Origin: Armatimonadota bacterium
GTDB lineage: Bacteria > Armatimonadota > Fimbriimonadia > Fimbriimonadales > Fimbriimonadaceae
Direction of reading: 5' to 3'
Length of the DNA: 37,365 nt
Assembly (NCBI GenBank): GCA_018268335.1
Contig: JAFDWT010000021.1
Span: 1-37,365 of the forward strand
A program made the position numbers and the translations under genes. Numbering within the stretch: the first letter of the stretch is position 1; every line of letters begins with the position of its first letter. A model generated the notes under the pieces. That model was not told the DNA's origin. It did not search any database and saw only the letters and a program-made list of their open reading frames with translations. Of the stretch, positions 12,682 through 28,610 are shown piece by piece.

Positions 12682-13899
12682 TTGAGCAGTAGCAGCGCAG
12701 TCATCAAAGTCGTCGGAGTCGGGGGAGGCGGATGCAACGCCGTCAACCGCATGGTCGAGTCGAACATCCAGGGGGTCGAGTTCATCGCGATGAACACCGA
12801 CGTCCAGGTACTCGACCGCTCGTTAGCTTCCAAGAAGATCCAGCTCGGCGCCAACCTGGCCCGTGGGCTGGGCGCCGGCGGCGACCCTGAGATCGGCAAG
12901 GCGTCGGCTGAAGAGAGCAAGAACGACGTCCGCAAGGTTTTGGAGGGCAGCGACATGGTCTTCATCACCGCCGGTATGGGCGGTGGCACCGGTACCGGTG
13001 CGGCTCCCGTCGTCGCCGACCTGGCCCGCGAAATCGGCGCACTGACCGTCGCGATCGTCACCAAGCCGTTTGCCTTCGAGGGACCACGCCGAGGCCGCAT
13101 GGCCGAAAACGGCGTCACCTCGCTGGTTGGTCGTGTGGACACGATGATCACCATCCCCAACGACCGGCTTCTGGACGTGGTGGAGCGCAAGACCACCTTC
13201 CTCGACGCCTTCGGCGTGGCCGATGACGTCCTGCGACAAGGCGTCCAGGGCATCAGCGACATCATCACTGTCCCCGGTCAGATCAACGTCGACTTTGCTG
13301 ACGTCAAAGCCGTCATGACCAACGCCGGCCCTGCGCTGATGGGGATTGGCTATGGCATCGGCGACCAACGCGCCCTGCAGGCCGCCCAACAGGCGACCAG
13401 CAGCCCGCTGTTGGAACAGTCCATCCACGGCGCCCGCGGCCTGCTGGTCAACATCACCAGCAGCGACGACCTGACCCTCAGCGAAGTCAACGAGGCGATG
13501 GCCTATATCCACTCGCTGTGCGACGAGGAGGACGCGAACATCTTCTTCGGCACCGTCGTCGATCCGACACTCGACAACGAGGTCCGGTTCACGGTTCTGG
13601 CGACCGGTTTCTCGAGCACTGCTTATCAGGCTCGCCCCGCCCTGCGGACAGCCGTCTCGGCCACGCCGACCGCTGCAGTGTCCGACCAGGCGGTCGCCGT
13701 GCAGCGGGACGTCCAGCCGTTCTCGCCCAACGCCGGTGCCGCCGAGGCCCGACTTGGCGCGAACCGGACGACTATCAAGGACATCTGGGACAAGGCCAGC
13801 ACCGCCCAGCGCGAACAGGCCAAGCCCGAAGAGATCTTCGACGACAGCGAGATCGATATCCCCGCCTTCCTGCGCGAGCATCGCAACAAGAGGGACTGA
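12682..13899 (+). CDS. ftsZ: Cell division GTPase FtsZ
   Basis: FtsZ is the tubulin-like GTPase that forms the division ring. The 405-residue protein shows [14 protein letters not shown] at about residues 11-24, the tubulin signature [10 protein letters not shown] at about 100-109, and the T7-loop region [17 protein letters not shown] near 207. A variable linker follows, then the conserved tail DIPAFLREH that binds FtsA and other partners. The start is TTG with a ribosome binding site just upstream. The gene follows ftsA by 46 bases and is closed by a strong hairpin terminator. It is the last gene of the dcw cluster here. Confidence 0.98.
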
Positions 13900-13911
13900 C
13901 CTTTGTCGGGC

Positions 13912-13955
13912 AAAACCCCTGGGCCGCACCGACTGCGACGGCCCAGGGGTTTTTC
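13912..13955 (+). terminator. Strong, probably bidirectional terminator after ftsZ
   Basis: A perfect 15-bp stem (13912-13926 with 13939-13953) has a 12-base loop and is rich in G and C in its centre. The outer pairs are four A and four T, so a run of five T follows on the plus strand and a run of four T follows on the minus strand. The facing gene stops at 13955, directly beside it, so the hairpin can end both transcripts. Confidence 0.9.
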
Positions 13956-14794
13956 TATATGCGCCGCTCGAACTGCTCGGGTGGCACATCGGTTAACAGT
14001 GCCATCCAAGACTTCAAATCCATTCCGGGCAACCGGTTCCGCCATCTGAAGACGCTCAGGGCGTTTTCCTCGGTGCCGCACCGGCCCATCTCCGTCATCA
14101 GGCGCCAGTCACGGGCCATCTCCGTTTCCATCTGCGCTGCGGTCGCGGCGTCGAGCACCATGGCACCGGCGGCTGTGTAGGTGTCGTCCGGCAGCGTGCC
14201 GGCGGCGCGGGCAAACCGCGCCATGTCGTTGTAGCTCAAGCCGTGGAAGTGCGGACGGTTGTTCTTGAACAGCCGCCATTGCCGGGGGATGGCGACAAAG
14301 AGGGAAGTGGATTCGTGCGCCAAAGGCTGCAGGCGATGCTCCAGCCGCTCTTGGCTATAGCCTTCCCAAACCTCCGGCACCCGGTGGTCGTAGACGACAC
14401 TAAACAGGAGCCCGGCATCAAGCCACACAATCTTGCCAAACCGACGGGCCAGCTCGCAAGTGATGGCCGATTTTGCCAAATAAACGCTGACGAGTCCGGG
14501 CATCTGGTACTCGTCCAGCCGTGTGTTGCGCCAACTCCAGTCAAAAAGCCGGACGACCTCTTGGTCGGGGTCGTCAACGTCCCAAATCCGCTTTCGGTAT
14601 TCGTCGATGCTTGTGACCAGCACGACCTCGATGGCCGGGTCGAAGTCGGTCGGGTCGTTGGTAGCGACGACCAGTCGGGCCGCTCCCTTCTTTTTAGCCA
14701 GATCGTTGAGTAGGAGCCGATAGTACTTCTCCGGCTCCCGGTCTTTGCGGACGCCAAAGAACGCGCAGCTAGCAAGGGTGACAGGCTCCGGCAT
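13955..14794 (-). CDS. Unrecognised protein, paralog of the divergent gene at 15086; possibly glycosyltransferase-like
   Basis: The 279-residue protein has no signal peptide or membrane segment. It begins with a hydrophobic strand (TLASCAFFGV), then RLVVATNDP, and has KIVWLDAGLLFS near residue 120 and GLSYNDMARFARAAG near 195. The end reads ENALSVFRWRNRLPGMDLKSWM. The last two thirds align by eye with the product of the gene read divergently from 15086: WLD, the R-x-W segment, GL-[TS]-YDDM/YNDM, and SVFRWR/SILRWR all recur. The WLDAG segment recalls GT-A-type and HtrL/YibB-like proteins, but this is weak and I do not assign a function. It converges on ftsZ and shares its terminator. Confidence 0.75.
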   Translation of the reverse strand: MPEPVTLASCAFFGVRKDREPEKYYRLLLNDLAKKKGAARLVVATNDPTDFDPAIEVVLVTSIDEYRKRIWDVDDPDQEVVRLFDWSWRNTRLDEYQMPGLVSVYLAKSAITCELARRFGKIVWLDAGLLFSVVYDHRVPEVWEGYSQERLEHRLQPLAHESTSLFVAIPRQWRLFKNNRPHFHGLSYNDMARFARAAGTLPDDTYTAAGAMVLDAATAAQMETEMARDWRLMTEMGRCGTEENALSVFRWRNRLPGMDLKSWMALLTDVPPEQFERRI

Positions 14795-14834
14795 CTGCGG
14801 GAGGGGATGGTACCCCTAGACCTGCTCCTTGTTT

Positions 14835-14872
14835 GGCTTGCCTGGCAGCCTTGGCCAAGCCATGGGCAAGCC
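14835..14872. promoter_or_regulatory. Dyad-symmetric element between divergent paralogs
   Basis: GGCTTGCC at 14835-14842 and its exact inverse GGCAAGCC at 14865-14872 flank a perfect 10-base palindrome CTTGGCCAAG at 14850-14859. The two dyads share nearly the same centre. It lies in the roughly 290-base gap between the divergent genes starting at 14794 and 15086, nearer to the minus-strand gene. An operator or a leader hairpin are both possible; the rest of the gap shows no convincing gene. Confidence 0.35.
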
Positions 14873-15085
14873 GCCAAGAACCCGACTTGCCGAATCGTTG
14901 GCGCTCGGCTGCGACCGCGACGACCAGTGCGGCCAAGTCGGGGCACCCTTCTTTCGCGTATCCCTATGTTGTGTGCCCTGGGCTGGCCGCACCGGGCGGT
15001 CTCGTCAGCATCGAGTGGCCCCGCTGCGGCAGCCCAGGTACTACACGCTCTCAATCGAGATATGATCCAAATGACAGTGCCGCCC

Positions 15086-15769
15086 ATGCCCGACCCAACT
15101 TCGCACAATCTGACAATAGTCGGCACTATCCCAGCCGGGCCAGACACAACGAACGCTGGCACAGAGTTCTTCAACGACCTGCGGAGCAAAACTGACCTGC
15201 CGATCGTGGTCTTCACCGCTGACCCGGGCAACTGCATCGAAGGAATCAAGACCCGGTCATTTGCAACAGGAAGCCACCCATGGATGGCGACACTGGCCGC
15301 CGCCACCGAGGAGTTCGGCGACGTCCTGTGGCTGGATGGCCACCACTTGCTCCATGGCGAAATCCAGGGGCCGGTCAGCCCTGCCAAGATCGAAAAGGAG
15401 CTCCTACCATGGCTGCGCGTCCGCCAGGCGGAGCGGCTCCCGGTCTGGGCCACTAGGCCTCGGAACTGGTGGGCGAACTCCGAGGAGTCGTCGGGCGTCG
15501 GCTTGACCTATGACGACATGACCGACCTAGCCCGGGCCTGCGAGATCCGACCAGGATCCGGCTACGTGTGCCCAGCCGCCGCCCTGGTTCTGCCCGAAAC
15601 GGCCAAAGTCATTGCCGAGGAGTTCGAGGGCATCAAGCAACGCCTCACCTCCCGCTGGCCGAGGGGCGATGAAGCGACGGTGCTCTCGATCCTCCGCTGG
15701 CGACATCGATGGCTAGGCGTGGACGCCTACGAATGGGCCCGCAGGTTGGTCGCTGATCCAATTGCCTGA
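15086..15769 (+). CDS. Unrecognised protein, paralog of the divergent gene ending at 13955
   Basis: The product has 227 residues with no signal peptide. It opens with MPDPTSHNLTIVGT, parallel to MPEPVTLASCAFFG in its divergent paralog, which is why I chose the ATG at 15086. The frame stays open back to 14807, but that extension is Arg/Pro-rich and unlike the paralog; ATGs at 15062 and 15071 are also possible. Shared segments are DVLWLDGHHLLHG, RPRNWW, GLTYDDMTDLARA and ATVLSILRWRHRWLGVDAYEW. A TATGAT at 15061-15066 would place transcription just before 15086. The paralog's WLDAG is WLDGH here. Function unknown; an old inverted duplication is inferred. Confidence 0.7.
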   Translation: MPDPTSHNLTIVGTIPAGPDTTNAGTEFFNDLRSKTDLPIVVFTADPGNCIEGIKTRSFATGSHPWMATLAAATEEFGDVLWLDGHHLLHGEIQGPVSPAKIEKELLPWLRVRQAERLPVWATRPRNWWANSEESSGVGLTYDDMTDLARACEIRPGSGYVCPAAALVLPETAKVIAEEFEGIKQRLTSRWPRGDEATVLSILRWRHRWLGVDAYEWARRLVADPIA

Positions 15770-15826
15770 TGCTTCATTTTTCCGTCTTCGACTCCATTTG
15801 CTAGACTGAAACTAGAGATTGCCAAT

Positions 15827-16435
15827 ATGTTTGGACTATCGATTGCCGTTCTCGTTGTCGCTTCGCCTTGGGTAACCAATGGTCAAGAGGCGACAAGGGC
15901 CAATGTGGCAGACGCCATCGATGGTTTGCAGGGCGTAGTGAGAGACAAGGTAGGACGACCAGTGCCAGGTGCCACTGTCCGTGTACGGATGAGTCCAAAA
16001 TTTGCCGTGACGGATGGCTACGGACATTACCGGTTCAAAGAGTCGCTTCGAAAGGGATCACTTATCTGCGCCATTACGTCTGACTCGGAATCCGGCGAAC
16101 CGGTGCAAGTGTGGTCGCATATCGCAAACGACCTCGTCTTGGACAAGAAGGCAACTATATTGAAGGGACGCTTCCTCAGACGTGACGGCAGTCCGGCCAC
16201 CGGTGTCACGGTTGTGGTCAGAGCCAAGGAGAAGGATTCCTGTACACGCTTCTTCAATGTCGCACAAGTCAAAACGGATACTGACGGCACCTATTCCTGT
16301 CCATTGCCGTTTTCGAAGTTGGTCCACTTCGTGTTTGTTCAGACTCCTCGACAGTGGTGGAATGAAGAAGAAATGCTTATCGAACGAACTGAGCAAACAT
16401 ACATTTTCAGGGATGTCCAGTACGCTGGCAGCTAG
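15827..16435 (+). CDS. Secreted protein with two carboxypeptidase-regulatory-like repeats
   Basis: The 202-residue product starts with a hydrophobic signal peptide (FGLSIAVLVVASPW, likely cut after NGQ). Two similar beta-sandwich units follow. The first has GVVRDKVGRPVPGATVRV and TDGYGHYRF near residues 35-70. The second has LKGRFLRRDGSPATGVTVVV and TDTDGTYSCP near 112-160. This G-x-V-x-D-x-x-G-x-P-V-x-G-A pattern is typical of CarboxypepD_reg-like domains found in surface and secreted proteins. There is no enzyme domain. Base use is visibly less GC-rich than in the dcw genes. Its TAG stop shares the bases CTAG with the stop of the convergent fucosidase gene. Confidence 0.7.
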   Translation: MFGLSIAVLVVASPWVTNGQEATRANVADAIDGLQGVVRDKVGRPVPGATVRVRMSPKFAVTDGYGHYRFKESLRKGSLICAITSDSESGEPVQVWSHIANDLVLDKKATILKGRFLRRDGSPATGVTVVVRAKEKDSCTRFFNVAQVKTDTDGTYSCPLPFSKLVHFVFVQTPRQWWNEEEMLIERTEQTYIFRDVQYAGS

Positions 16436-17682
16436 TCGCGCCCAGGGCCTTGATACACCGAGAACGGCTCTTTGAACACAATCTTCACCACCGTCACCTC
16501 AGGATCAAGCTTGCCCTCCGGTAGAGCGAATTCGTAAGCCCCGGGGACCGGGTTCCAGTCGCTATGCCCAAACCGTTTCCACGTCAGCGGCGTGCCGTCG
16601 AGCAGCGTCGCCGACACGATGTCGCCCTTGATCCCTCGAAGCCCGAAGTGGCCCCGGGGGTCGCCGAAGACGAAGAGGTAGAGCGTCTTGCCGTCCTGGC
16701 TCCGCGTCGAGGGGCCGTAGAAGCAGTTGGTCGGCACTCCGGCTCGGGAACCGTAGACCGCCTCGGCATGAGGCTTGATCCATCGGCCAAGAAACTCCAA
16801 CGCTTCCCGCGACTCAGATGGAATGGTGCCGTCCTCCATCGGGCCGATGTCGAAGAGCAGGTTGCCACCCATGCCGATGGTCTCCAGGAACATGCGGAGG
16901 ACGTACTGCGGCGACTTCCAGTTGGTGTCGCAGAACCGCCAGCCCCAGTTGTCGTTGTGGGTGACGCAGAACTCCCACGGCCCCTCGGGCGGCACGACCG
17001 GCATACCCTGTTCGGGTGTGGCGTAGTCGCCGTATCCCTGCATACGGCTGTTAATGACGGCGTTCGGCTGCCAGGCGTGCAACTGGTCGCGCAGTTCCTT
17101 CATGCGCCAGGTCTCGGCGTCGCGCTCCCAGTCGCCGTCGAACCAAAGCAGGTCGACCGGGCCGAACTGGGTGCAGAGTTCCTTCAGCTGAGCGCGGTGG
17201 AAAGCGAGGAACCGCTCCCATCCCGCATCGTCGGTCGGGCCTTGCCGGAACGCAAACCGGTTGGCCGCGGGGTCGTCGCTGCCTATGCTGGCGTAGTCGG
17301 GGTGCGACCAGTCCAGGTGGCTGAAGTAGAACCCGACGCGCAACCCGTGGTGACGAAGTGCCTCCACGTAGGGCGTGATGAGATCGCGCCCCGCCGGGGT
17401 GCTCTTGACAGTTGAAATCGCCCCGGCTTGAGTGTCCCACAAAGCCACCCCGTCGTGGTGCTTGGTCGTCAGGACGGCGTATTGGGCGCCGCTCGCCTTA
17501 AAGAGAGCGGCCCAGTCCTCGGGGTCGTACTGAGAAGCTGTGAAGCCCGGGGCCTGAGAGAAGTATTCGTCATACGTCGTCTCACCGTTAAAGAACGACC
17601 AACTCTCCGTCGTCCCGTTGACAGCGTAGATGCCCCAGTGGATGAAGATCCCGAGCTTGGCCTCGGGGAACCACGACTGCAT
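16432..17682 (-). CDS. Alpha-L-fucosidase, glycoside hydrolase family 29
   Basis: This 416-residue enzyme should release terminal L-fucose. It shows the GH29 pattern: WFPEAKLGIFIHWGIYAV at residues 4-21, YAVLTTKHHDGVALWD at 68-83, GFYFSHLDW near 117, and VDLLWFDGDW at 176-185, where Asp182 is the likely nucleophile. RAEAVYGS-like AEAVYGSRAG comes later. No signal peptide is present, so it acts in the cytoplasm or is exported otherwise. I chose the ATG at 17682, which overlaps the stop of the upstream transporter gene as ATGA; a longer frame reaches 17709. Translational coupling with the transporter suggests the substrate is imported by it. Confidence 0.9.
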   Translation of the reverse strand: MQSWFPEAKLGIFIHWGIYAVNGTTESWSFFNGETTYDEYFSQAPGFTASQYDPEDWAALFKASGAQYAVLTTKHHDGVALWDTQAGAISTVKSTPAGRDLITPYVEALRHHGLRVGFYFSHLDWSHPDYASIGSDDPAANRFAFRQGPTDDAGWERFLAFHRAQLKELCTQFGPVDLLWFDGDWERDAETWRMKELRDQLHAWQPNAVINSRMQGYGDYATPEQGMPVVPPEGPWEFCVTHNDNWGWRFCDTNWKSPQYVLRMFLETIGMGGNLLFDIGPMEDGTIPSESREALEFLGRWIKPHAEAVYGSRAGVPTNCFYGPSTRSQDGKTLYLFVFGDPRGHFGLRGIKGDIVSATLLDGTPLTWKRFGHSDWNPVPGAYEFALPEGKLDPEVTVVKIVFKEPFSVYQGPGRD

Positions 17683-19058
17683 CACGAGGCCGCCATCTCC
17701 TCGTCCCACATCTTGACGTCGCGCTTCTCCTTGATCAGGAAGCTACCAATCACAAACGTGATCAAAGCGACCACGATTGGATACCAGAACCCACTGTAGG
17801 GGTCTTTCGTCTGCTTGTTGATCTCCAAGAAGAGGAACGGCACCATGCCGCCGAAGACGCCGTTGCCGATGTGATAGGGCAGCGACATCGAGGTGTAGCG
17901 GATCTTGGTGGGGAAGAGTTCGACCAAGAACGCCGCGATCGGCCCGTAGACCATCGTGACCAAGATGACCAAGCCGACGACCAGACTGATGATCAAGCCG
18001 ACATTGGGGTCGTGGGCCGGTGCCTTGGGCATCGCCGGGTTGTAGTTGGCCGCTGCCGCCATGGCGTGGTAGATCGGCATATACAGGACGACTGCCAGAA
18101 AGCATCCGGTCATGATGATCGGCTTGCGCCCGATCCGGTCGCTCAGCCAGCCAAAGAACACGAAGAACGGTGTCGCGATCAGCAGGCTGACGGCAATGAT
18201 CTGGTTAGCCAGCAGCTTGTCCACGTTCAAGACGGTCTGCAGGAAAAAGAGCGATTGGAACTGGCCCGTGTACCAAACGACACCCTGGCCCATCGTGGCG
18301 CCGAACAAGGCGATGAGCACCACCCGCCGGTTCTCGGGGTTCATGAAGCTCTCCTTCAGCGGGTTGGCCGACGTTTTGCCGACTTTCTTGGCGTGAGCGA
18401 AGAGCGGCGACTCGGACATGCGCTTGCGGATCAGATAGGAGAACACGACCAGGATCAAACTGAGCCAAAACGGGATGCGCCAGCCCCAGTCTTCAAACGT
18501 GGCCTTCGGCAGATTGGCCTGGCAGATCATGATCACGCCCAGCGACATGAAGAGCCCGAGGGTGGCCGTCGTCTGGATGAAGCTGGTATAGAAGCCGCGC
18601 TTGCCGTCTGGACTGTGCTCGGCCACATATGTCGCCGCCCCACCGTACTCGCCGCCCAGAGCGAGGCCCTGGAGCAACCGTAGGATGATCAGCAGTGCCG
18701 GCGCGGCCCAGCCAATGGTGTGGAAAGACGGAATGCAGCCAATGGCAAAGGTCGCGCCGCCCATCAAGATCAGCGTCACCAAAAACGTGTATTTCCGGCC
18801 GATGATGTCGCCGATCCGCCCGAAGAACAATGCACCAAAGGGCCGCACGACAAAGCCGATCGCAAAGGTCGCTAGCGTCTTGAGAAGCTCACCGCCCTCC
18901 TTGTCCGAAGGGAAGAAGTGCTTGGACAAGAACACCGAAAGGGAAGCGAAGATGTAGAAGTCGTACCACTCGATCAGCGTTCCGGCCGACGAGGCCCCGA
19001 TGACCGACCAAATCTTCTTCTCGCTCCGCTCCTCAGCGGCGGCCACTGCGTTGTCCAT
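17682..19058 (-). CDS. MFS transporter, metabolite:H+ symporter (MHS) family
   Basis: The 458-residue membrane protein has about twelve hydrophobic segments in two halves. Family marks are GTLIEWYDFYIFASL near residue 26, the loop GRIGDIIGRKYTF near 80, RLLQGLALGGEYGGAATYVAEHSP near 128, and the second-half loop GWLSDRIGRKP near 300. These fit the MHS/ProP-KgtP-ShiA group, which carries organic acids, betaines and similar solutes by proton symport. The gene overlaps and precedes the GH29 fucosidase gene, so it may take up a fucoside or a breakdown product. That substrate is inferred from context and would be unusual for the family. Confidence 0.9.
   Translation of the reverse strand: MDNAVAAAEERSEKKIWSVIGASSAGTLIEWYDFYIFASLSVFLSKHFFPSDKEGGELLKTLATFAIGFVVRPFGALFFGRIGDIIGRKYTFLVTLILMGGATFAIGCIPSFHTIGWAAPALLIILRLLQGLALGGEYGGAATYVAEHSPDGKRGFYTSFIQTTATLGLFMSLGVIMICQANLPKATFEDWGWRIPFWLSLILVVFSYLIRKRMSESPLFAHAKKVGKTSANPLKESFMNPENRRVVLIALFGATMGQGVVWYTGQFQSLFFLQTVLNVDKLLANQIIAVSLLIATPFFVFFGWLSDRIGRKPIIMTGCFLAVVLYMPIYHAMAAAANYNPAMPKAPAHDPNVGLIISLVVGLVILVTMVYGPIAAFLVELFPTKIRYTSMSLPYHIGNGVFGGMVPFLFLEINKQTKDPYSGFWYPIVVALITFVIGSFLIKEKRDVKMWDEEMAAS

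Positions 19059-28525: not shown

Positions 28526-28610
<85 letters not shown>

Follow-up and report, generated by a model that had tools for sequence, protein, structure and literature searches.

Two groups of described proteins come closest to the genes discussed here. The first is the HtrL_YibB family (PF09612), described in Pfam as of unknown function. Its Escherichia coli representative, htrL, adjoins rfaD-waaF-waaC, and HtrL_YibB proteins of lipooligosaccharide (LOS) loci are uncharacterised or of unknown function in the available parts of two reports (PMC4172580, PMC10327509), while the available part of a third gives HtrL no assigned function and places the domain also in a nematode protein (PMC8989417). 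No title on HtrL as a glycosyltransferase was found among the matches listed for HtrL_YibB in the literature. The second group comprises glycosyltransferases of the GT-A fold such as LARGE1, the blood-group and alpha-1,3-galactosyltransferases, LgtC and glycogenin. Here, we analyze a 37,365-nt stretch of Armatimonadota bacterium DNA (Fimbriimonadaceae; assembly GCA_018268335.1, contig JAFDWT010000021.1; hereafter, the window), in which two homologous genes, P0001 and P0002, lie beside ftsZ. Our preferred reading, to which we assign a probability of roughly 60%, is that P0001 is the working copy and P0002 a residue-poor orthologue of the gene adjoining ftsZ in a congener (genome G052), both belonging to an HtrL-like family with a predicted GT-A fold, with a pair of hairpin repeats in the gap between them. 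This gene pair is known from one draft genome.

The relationship between the two genes is clear at the sequence level. A preliminary description had proposed them as paralogs placed head to head, and both open reading frames (ORFs) are present in that arrangement (Table 1). BLASTP aligns 157 C-terminal residues with 27% identity (50.1 bits, E 6e-12), and the Smith-Waterman score of 129 was not reached in any of 2000 shuffles (33 ± 5.3); the alignment of the two products is thus significant and their homology holds. Among the segments thought to be shared, WLDAG/WLDGH, GLSYNDM/GLTYDDM and SVFRWRNR/SILRWRHR fall inside the aligned region, whereas the MPEP/MPDP starts fall outside; these starts are paired by MAFFT, although the N-terminal halves alone align at chance level (their score was reached in 208 of 2000 shuffles). 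The strong N-terminal divergence suggested previously is therefore seen in the direct comparison, but in P0002 it is partly internal loss, because this protein aligns in one frame from near its N-terminus when the G052 protein is the query (e.g., NDLRSKTDLPIVVFTADP). In the alignment A3, its N-terminal half carries gaps of 33 and 8 columns, and another 8 gap columns follow WLDG.

The phylogeny separates the two genes. In a six-row tree, P0002 groups with the G052 protein (support 99/99) and P0001 with that of genome G040 (85/93), and P0002 is 44.8% identical to the former and 27.1% to P0001. The branch of P0002 is very long (1.28, against 0.03 for G052, or 0.13 under LG+G4). The only homologue in G052 lies directly downstream of ftsZ on the same strand, and P0002 also reads in the direction of ftsZ, with P0001 inverted between them; the ftsZ genes of the window and of G052 are 88% identical. 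Synteny in G052 agrees with the tree, and P0002 is likely the orthologue of the ftsZ-adjacent gene of G052, while P0001, judged from the tree, belongs to a lineage separate from P0002/G052. Between ftsZ and the homologue in G052 there is a hairpin with a T-run, terminator-like and similar to the one past ftsZ in the window; the idea that the G052 gene is cotranscribed with ftsZ was dropped because this hairpin intervenes.

The preliminary description had instead derived the pair from an old inverted duplication, with divided roles and a bidirectional promoter serving both genes. The homology and the head-to-head order would fit this scenario, as would a P0001+P0002+G052 clade, the older split in the genus lineage that the approximately unbiased (AU) test did not reject (p 0.068). 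Nevertheless, the same test rejected P0001 and P0002 as sisters (p 0.0019), so that a local inverted duplication within the species lineage is disfavoured under this model, and the symmetry of the gap comes from a pair of dispersed repeats with no sigma-70-like site, as detailed below. We consider this scenario very unlikely. P0001 may derive from an ancient split within the genus or may have been gained from another lineage. Its GC content at third codon positions (GC3, 0.78; ftsZ, 0.84; the G040 and G025 members, 0.58) does not point to a recent acquisition from low-GC DNA.

The long branch of P0002 is accompanied by an extensive loss of conserved residues. Columns invariant in the other five proteins are broken in 30 of 52 cases in P0002, compared with 5 of 27 in P0001, 1 of 23 in G052, 1 of 23 in G012, 4 of 26 in G040 and 3 of 25 in G025, where P0002 counts as a reference for these other members and thereby reduces their column sets. 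In a second test, in which P0002 was excluded from the references and four full-length proteins were used each time, it broke 32–39 of 55–65 columns (8–11 of them as gaps), against 10/62 for P0001, 3/55 for G052, 4/56 for G012, 13/65 for G040 and 11/63 for G025. Besides about 40–50 residues, P0002 has lost R-x-D-R, YY, the lysine of LAK, AGLL, F-H in FHG and the second of the two Glu in GTEE, and it reads W-L-D-G-H at the WLDAG motif, in line with the earlier remark that one copy is altered there. It retains DM, R-W, the WLD aspartate and the first GTEE glutamate. P0001 is likely the working copy, as it keeps the family motifs.

P0002 still has the signature of a coding gene. Its GC3 is 0.76 and its codon score is 0.205 bits in frame and negative in the other five frames, while the part of the ORF reaching upstream as far as 14807 lacks a coding signal (−0.35); alternative in-frame starts are possible at 15062 and 15071. 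Relative to G052, the proportion of synonymous differences (pS) in P0002 (0.63) resembles that of the Mur ligase/D-Ala ligase (0.61) and of a 243-aa gene preceding the DUF881 gene (0.63; ftsQ by position, with no Pfam match), and compares with 0.52 for DUF881 and 0.46 for ftsZ. The proportion of nonsynonymous differences (pN) is 0.37 in P0002, against 0.12, 0.24, 0.12 and 0.08, respectively. The dN/dS is about 0.39 (dN 0.52, dS 1.33, the latter near saturation); for P0001 against G052 it is 0.56/1.77. In simulations of neutral decay (2000 runs per substitution level), P0002 stayed stop-free in 2.05%, 0.20% and 0.15% of runs at 0.25, 0.5 and 1 substitutions per site, respectively.

These observations suggest that P0002 is probably a non-catalytic GT-A protein, which would have lost catalysis yet stayed a protein along most of its branch. 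It could then be a functional pseudoenzyme, retained in a partner, regulatory or binding role, possibly towards P0001, an explanation that we take as a serious candidate while placing it below even odds. The open 227-codon frame with host-like codon use, the frame-preserving indels implied by its one-frame alignment to G052, a dN/dS that is not near 1, the retained predicted fold and the rarity of stop-free outcomes under neutrality all argue in this direction; the very long branch, the 30 broken columns, the near-saturated dS and the presence of the gene in one genome only argue the other way. Alternatively, P0002 could be a dying gene whose function has passed to P0001, its frame being open through recent decay or because the DNA is GC-rich. 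The lost residues and internal segments and the full-length homologue alongside would be expected in that case, but frame and codon use are still intact after about 1.3 synonymous changes per site relative to G052 without a stop, and we hold this explanation as possible, though tentatively. The two divide the preferred reading between them.

The preliminary description had named structure prediction and a comparison with GT-A families among its checks. The AlphaFold2 models of P0001 (predicted local distance difference test, pLDDT, 84.5; predicted template modelling score, pTM, 0.86) and P0002 (81.1 and 0.82, with relatives in the input alignment) both have a GT-A fold, bearing out a relation to GT-A proteins at the level of models. 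With VIA-align, the P0001 model matches LARGE1 (Z 13.1, root-mean-square deviation 3.2, 199 aligned residues), blood-group transferases (Z up to 12.6), and LgtC and glycogenin (Z 11.6 each), and P0002 gives similar matches (Z up to 11.9). Foldseek against the PDB gave P0001 a best E of 3.6e-5, with query-normalised template modelling (TM) scores of 0.40–0.46 among the matches listed. We therefore treat P0001 as a predicted GT-A glycosyltransferase. The family also differs from these enzymes: identity is 8–15% among the matches listed, PDB searches with the family gave no sequence-level match, and the canonical DxD is replaced by DxG, with W-[LI]-D-A-G in the five full-length members and W-L-D-G-H in P0002. 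Judging by the sequence and by GT8 motifs, W-L-D-A-G would stand at the place of DxD. The closest viral predicted structure to P0001 is that of an uncharacterised Caudovirales protein (BFVD A0A6J5L916; TM 0.61), with a Foldseek E (3.6e-9) better than that of any solved structure.

The family could use the GT-A fold for another role, such as nucleotide binding or nucleotidyl transfer. The DxG in place of DxD would be compatible with such a change, as would the lack of a close characterised relative in Pfam, NCBIfam and PDB sequence searches. However, the structural matches listed are glycosyltransferases, glycosyltransferase genes adjoin two of the four homologues outside the window's genome, and HtrL_YibB genes lie in lipopolysaccharide (LPS)/LOS loci; we regard a use other than glycosyl transfer as unlikely.

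The relation to HtrL_YibB had also been proposed for checking. The Pfam model PF09612 (curated cut-off 24.1 bits) reports neither P0001, P0002 nor any of the five members of alignment A2 at E ≤ 10, HMMER filters discarding most matches above about E 0.1, and E. coli HtrL alone against A2 is not significant (P 0.24). In contrast, profile comparisons with more HtrL sequences recover homology: HtrL plus two phage relatives against the family gave E 1.3e-4, and hhalign of the family against 61 HtrL sequences (three, together with 58 distinct proteins taken from 78 of 80 viral loci) gave E 3.4e-6 with a probability of 87.8 over 221 columns. Its score of 49.2 compares with 22.3 for the best of 150 column shuffles and 18.9 for the reversed alignment. 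Single members match the HtrL profile with E 0.0003–0.014, and P0002 alone with E 0.15. The two families align collinearly over these 221 columns and have several features in corresponding positions, namely W-[IL]-D-x-G, H-G, a strand with a glycine and a stretch resembling G-[TD]-[ED]-[ED]. From these profiles, the family is a remote relative of HtrL_YibB, whereas membership in PF09612 is not claimed, because the Pfam model itself does not report it.

Searches with HtrL_YibB itself were mostly silent. PF09612 had no match in 291 genomes of the phylum, a weak absence given that control genomes also gave none; PDB sequence searches with E. coli HtrL yielded no relative (best E 0.24), and the XacN1 HtrL domain alone had no match in viral_contigs. 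In two Campylobacter phage records (MG065686.1 and MG065691.1), one stretch matches HtrL of E. coli K-12 with 100% identity and may represent E. coli contamination of these assemblies.

The family has a sparse distribution. Of 113 genomes in the class, five match P0001 and the same five match P0002, all placed in one family, Fimbriimonadaceae-like; the window's genome is the only one of the 113 carrying both genes, the other four having a single gene each. Searching 291 genomes of the phylum with the G012 member gave six with matches, the sixth being a weak one in G122, taken as noise (family hidden Markov model E 0.12 at that locus). The G012 gene is adjoined by one Glyco_transf_9 and two Glycos_transf_1 genes and the G025 gene by one Glycos_transf_1 gene. 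No glycosyltransferase was found next to the G040 gene, whose two scanned neighbours are a TIM-barrel protein and one protein without match, or among the scanned neighbours of the G052 gene, namely ftsZ and a GGDEF/HD gene. No relative appeared in the viral_contigs scan, and tblastn of the G052 protein against phages and plasmids had no match at E ≤ 1. Scans of Pfam, NCBIfam and PHROGs and PDB sequence searches with the family gave nothing usable; weak matches to ACP_PD (E 0.13), Lys_KAL_CLE (E 0.19), a PHROG tape measure protein (E 0.02) and kumamolisin (E 0.15) were discarded.

The gap between the genes had been described as dyad-symmetric, and it is: its score against its own reverse complement is 32, compared with 13.5 ± 2.7 in 500 dinucleotide shuffles, none of which was as high. 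This symmetry is that of an inverted pair of dispersed hairpin repeats of about 74 nt (Table 1), which together form an imperfect palindrome of about 166 bp. The shared bidirectional promoter proposed from the symmetry was not recovered, as no sigma-70-like site was found in 13800–15900 (0.4 expected), a weak test covering sigma-70-like sites only.

In the window's genome (a 3.09-Mb draft), a 22-mer of the repeat has exact matches on C22 and C61 and matches with 3 mismatches on contigs C42 and C44, with no hits of the backward control. A covariance model built from seven copies, which match by construction, was scored on 150 of the 2746 first-look candidates and finds 12 copies in this genome at E ≤ 0.01 and 14 at E ≤ 0.1; 11 of the 12 have E ≤ 2e-6, and five are beyond the model's seven. 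In a search of 41 genomes (stricter filters, 118 candidates scored per genome), the window's genome had 12 matches, G057 27, G042 4 and G069 3, and there was no match in the 37 others, including the congener G052. In an alignment of 11 copies fitted to the model, 9 of the 17 stem pairs are changed on both sides, 93.6% of the cells are paired and the covariation score was reached in 0 of 500 shuffles; an unfitted MAFFT alignment of the seven copies gave two-sided changes in 9 of 17 pairs and 94.1% paired. Against covariation, the number of further pair types is not outstanding, being reached in 133 of 500 (11 copies) and 51 of 500 (7 copies) shuffles. The family tail is mostly GGGGCACCC, and further copies lie on C22, C42, C44, C50, C61, C63, C80 and C87. 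Inverted pairs are seen in the window (contig C40), on C61 and C63 with 5' ends facing, and as a weak pair on C87; many of the 27 matches in G057 also form inverted pairs. From mechanical ORF calls at seven other sites, the copies on C63, C61 and C80 lie between converging ORF ends, the one on C44 just past an ORF, and those on C22, C42 and C50 between tandem ORFs or overlapping short or doubtful ones. The window pair is the only one, among the sites examined, located between two gene starts.

Hairpins flanking a Y1 transposase (RAYT) gene are one trait of repetitive extragenic palindromic (REP) elements and BIMEs. The repeat resembles REP/BIME/REPIN elements in being a dispersed hairpin, in some inverted pairs and in the compensating changes of its stem. 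It differs in its length of about 74 nt and its copy number, which is 12 (or 14 at the looser threshold) rather than the more than 100 copies per genome usual for REP elements in the available part of PMC2817692. The window's genome has four Y1_Tnp (IS200/RAYT-like) matches (C36:10826-11161, C98:15557-15883, C48:28352-28591 and C124:33127-33366), two of them over the cut-off; G057 has one and G052 none. Beside these five loci the hairpin model had no match better than E 0.34, and the idea that the genome's Y1 transposases moved the hairpins found no support there. No title on the repeat was found among the matches listed in the literature for Armatimonadota with REP terms or HtrL. The only Rfam match over threshold in the window is a tRNA at 28529–28610, leaving the gap without one; sub-threshold microRNA and cis-acting replication element (CRE) matches in 13850–15900 were taken as chance resemblance, two of them sitting on the terminator-like hairpin and the second repeat hairpin.

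P0001 has a palindrome at each of its junctions, and in a single draft genome of 126 contigs these could also have promoted an assembly artefact affecting gene order or orientation. However, both ORFs are intact and the hairpin model has no match (E ≤ 1) at the 13912–13953 palindrome, so that the two junctions do not share that repeat; we regard an artefact as most improbable. By its sequence, this palindrome is terminator-like in both directions, for ftsZ and for P0001. It was missed by the hairpin scanner, probably owing to the scanner's loop limit of 8.

Table 1. Features of the ftsZ–P0001–P0002 locus (positions in the window).
Feature	Position	Strand	Description
ftsZ	12682..13899	+	Tubulin/FtsZ and FtsZ_C domains; syntenic anchor
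Terminator-like hairpin	13912..13953	none	Perfect 15-bp inverted repeat, 12-nt loop, A/T runs on both flanks
P0001	13955..14794	-	279 aa; full-length family member; predicted GT-A glycosyltransferase
Hairpin repeat copy 1	14877..14950	+	17-pair stem in the model, bulged C, tail GGGGCACCC
Hairpin repeat copy 2	14969..15042	-	Orientation opposite to copy 1, 3' tails facing each other
P0002	15086..15769	+	227 aa, with internal deletions; likely G052 orthologue; coding signal retained

To the right of P0002 (15827–19682), four genes were scanned, with matches to CarboxypepD_reg, alpha-L-fucosidase and a sugar transporter, and one without match. The ftsZ-adjacent region differs between the two congeners, because the CarboxypepD_reg protein and fucosidase at 15827–17709 correspond in G052 to a GGDEF/HD-domain gene on the far side of the homologue (L016:6758-8914).

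Several points weigh against the preferred reading. Regarding glycosyltransferase function, no Pfam, NCBIfam or PDB sequence match directly backs it, the Foldseek TM-scores and the identities to the matched structures are low among the matches listed, DxG replaces DxD, and the four right-hand genes scanned are not glycan-biosynthesis genes. Regarding P0002, its model drew on relatives in the alignment and its own match to the HtrL profile is not significant, while it keeps the first Asp of the motif, an intact frame and the modelled fold, so that its loss of activity is not proven. Finally, the tree has six rows only, and the clade uniting P0001, P0002 and G052 is not rejected.

Nevertheless, taking P0001 as the working copy and P0002 as the residue-poor orthologue, a possible history of the locus can be outlined. 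The intact members would most likely use a nucleotide-sugar donor and add its sugar to a glycan of the cell surface. The ancestor of the genus, as G052 and the tree suggest, would have had one gene of the family directly downstream of ftsZ and in the same direction. In the window's lineage this gene would be P0002, which would have lost its internal segments and many conserved residues and is probably no longer an enzyme, and P0001, a more distant member, would have come to lie inverted between ftsZ and P0002. The dispersed hairpin repeats may mark the rearrangement that brought it in.

The locus presents an ftsZ-adjacent gene joined by a distant homologue, the old copy losing many conserved residues while its frame persists. 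It also brings to light a family of structured repeats without an Rfam match over threshold. More broadly, HtrL_YibB and this family could form one superfamily of GT-A glycosyltransferases with DxG, of which P0002 would be a pseudoenzyme beside an active P0001. We consider this extension rather doubtful, but if true, a family known from bacterial LPS loci, large phages and nematodes would gain a function. With its confident GT-A model, the small outlying family described here offers HtrL_YibB a concrete function that can be tested.

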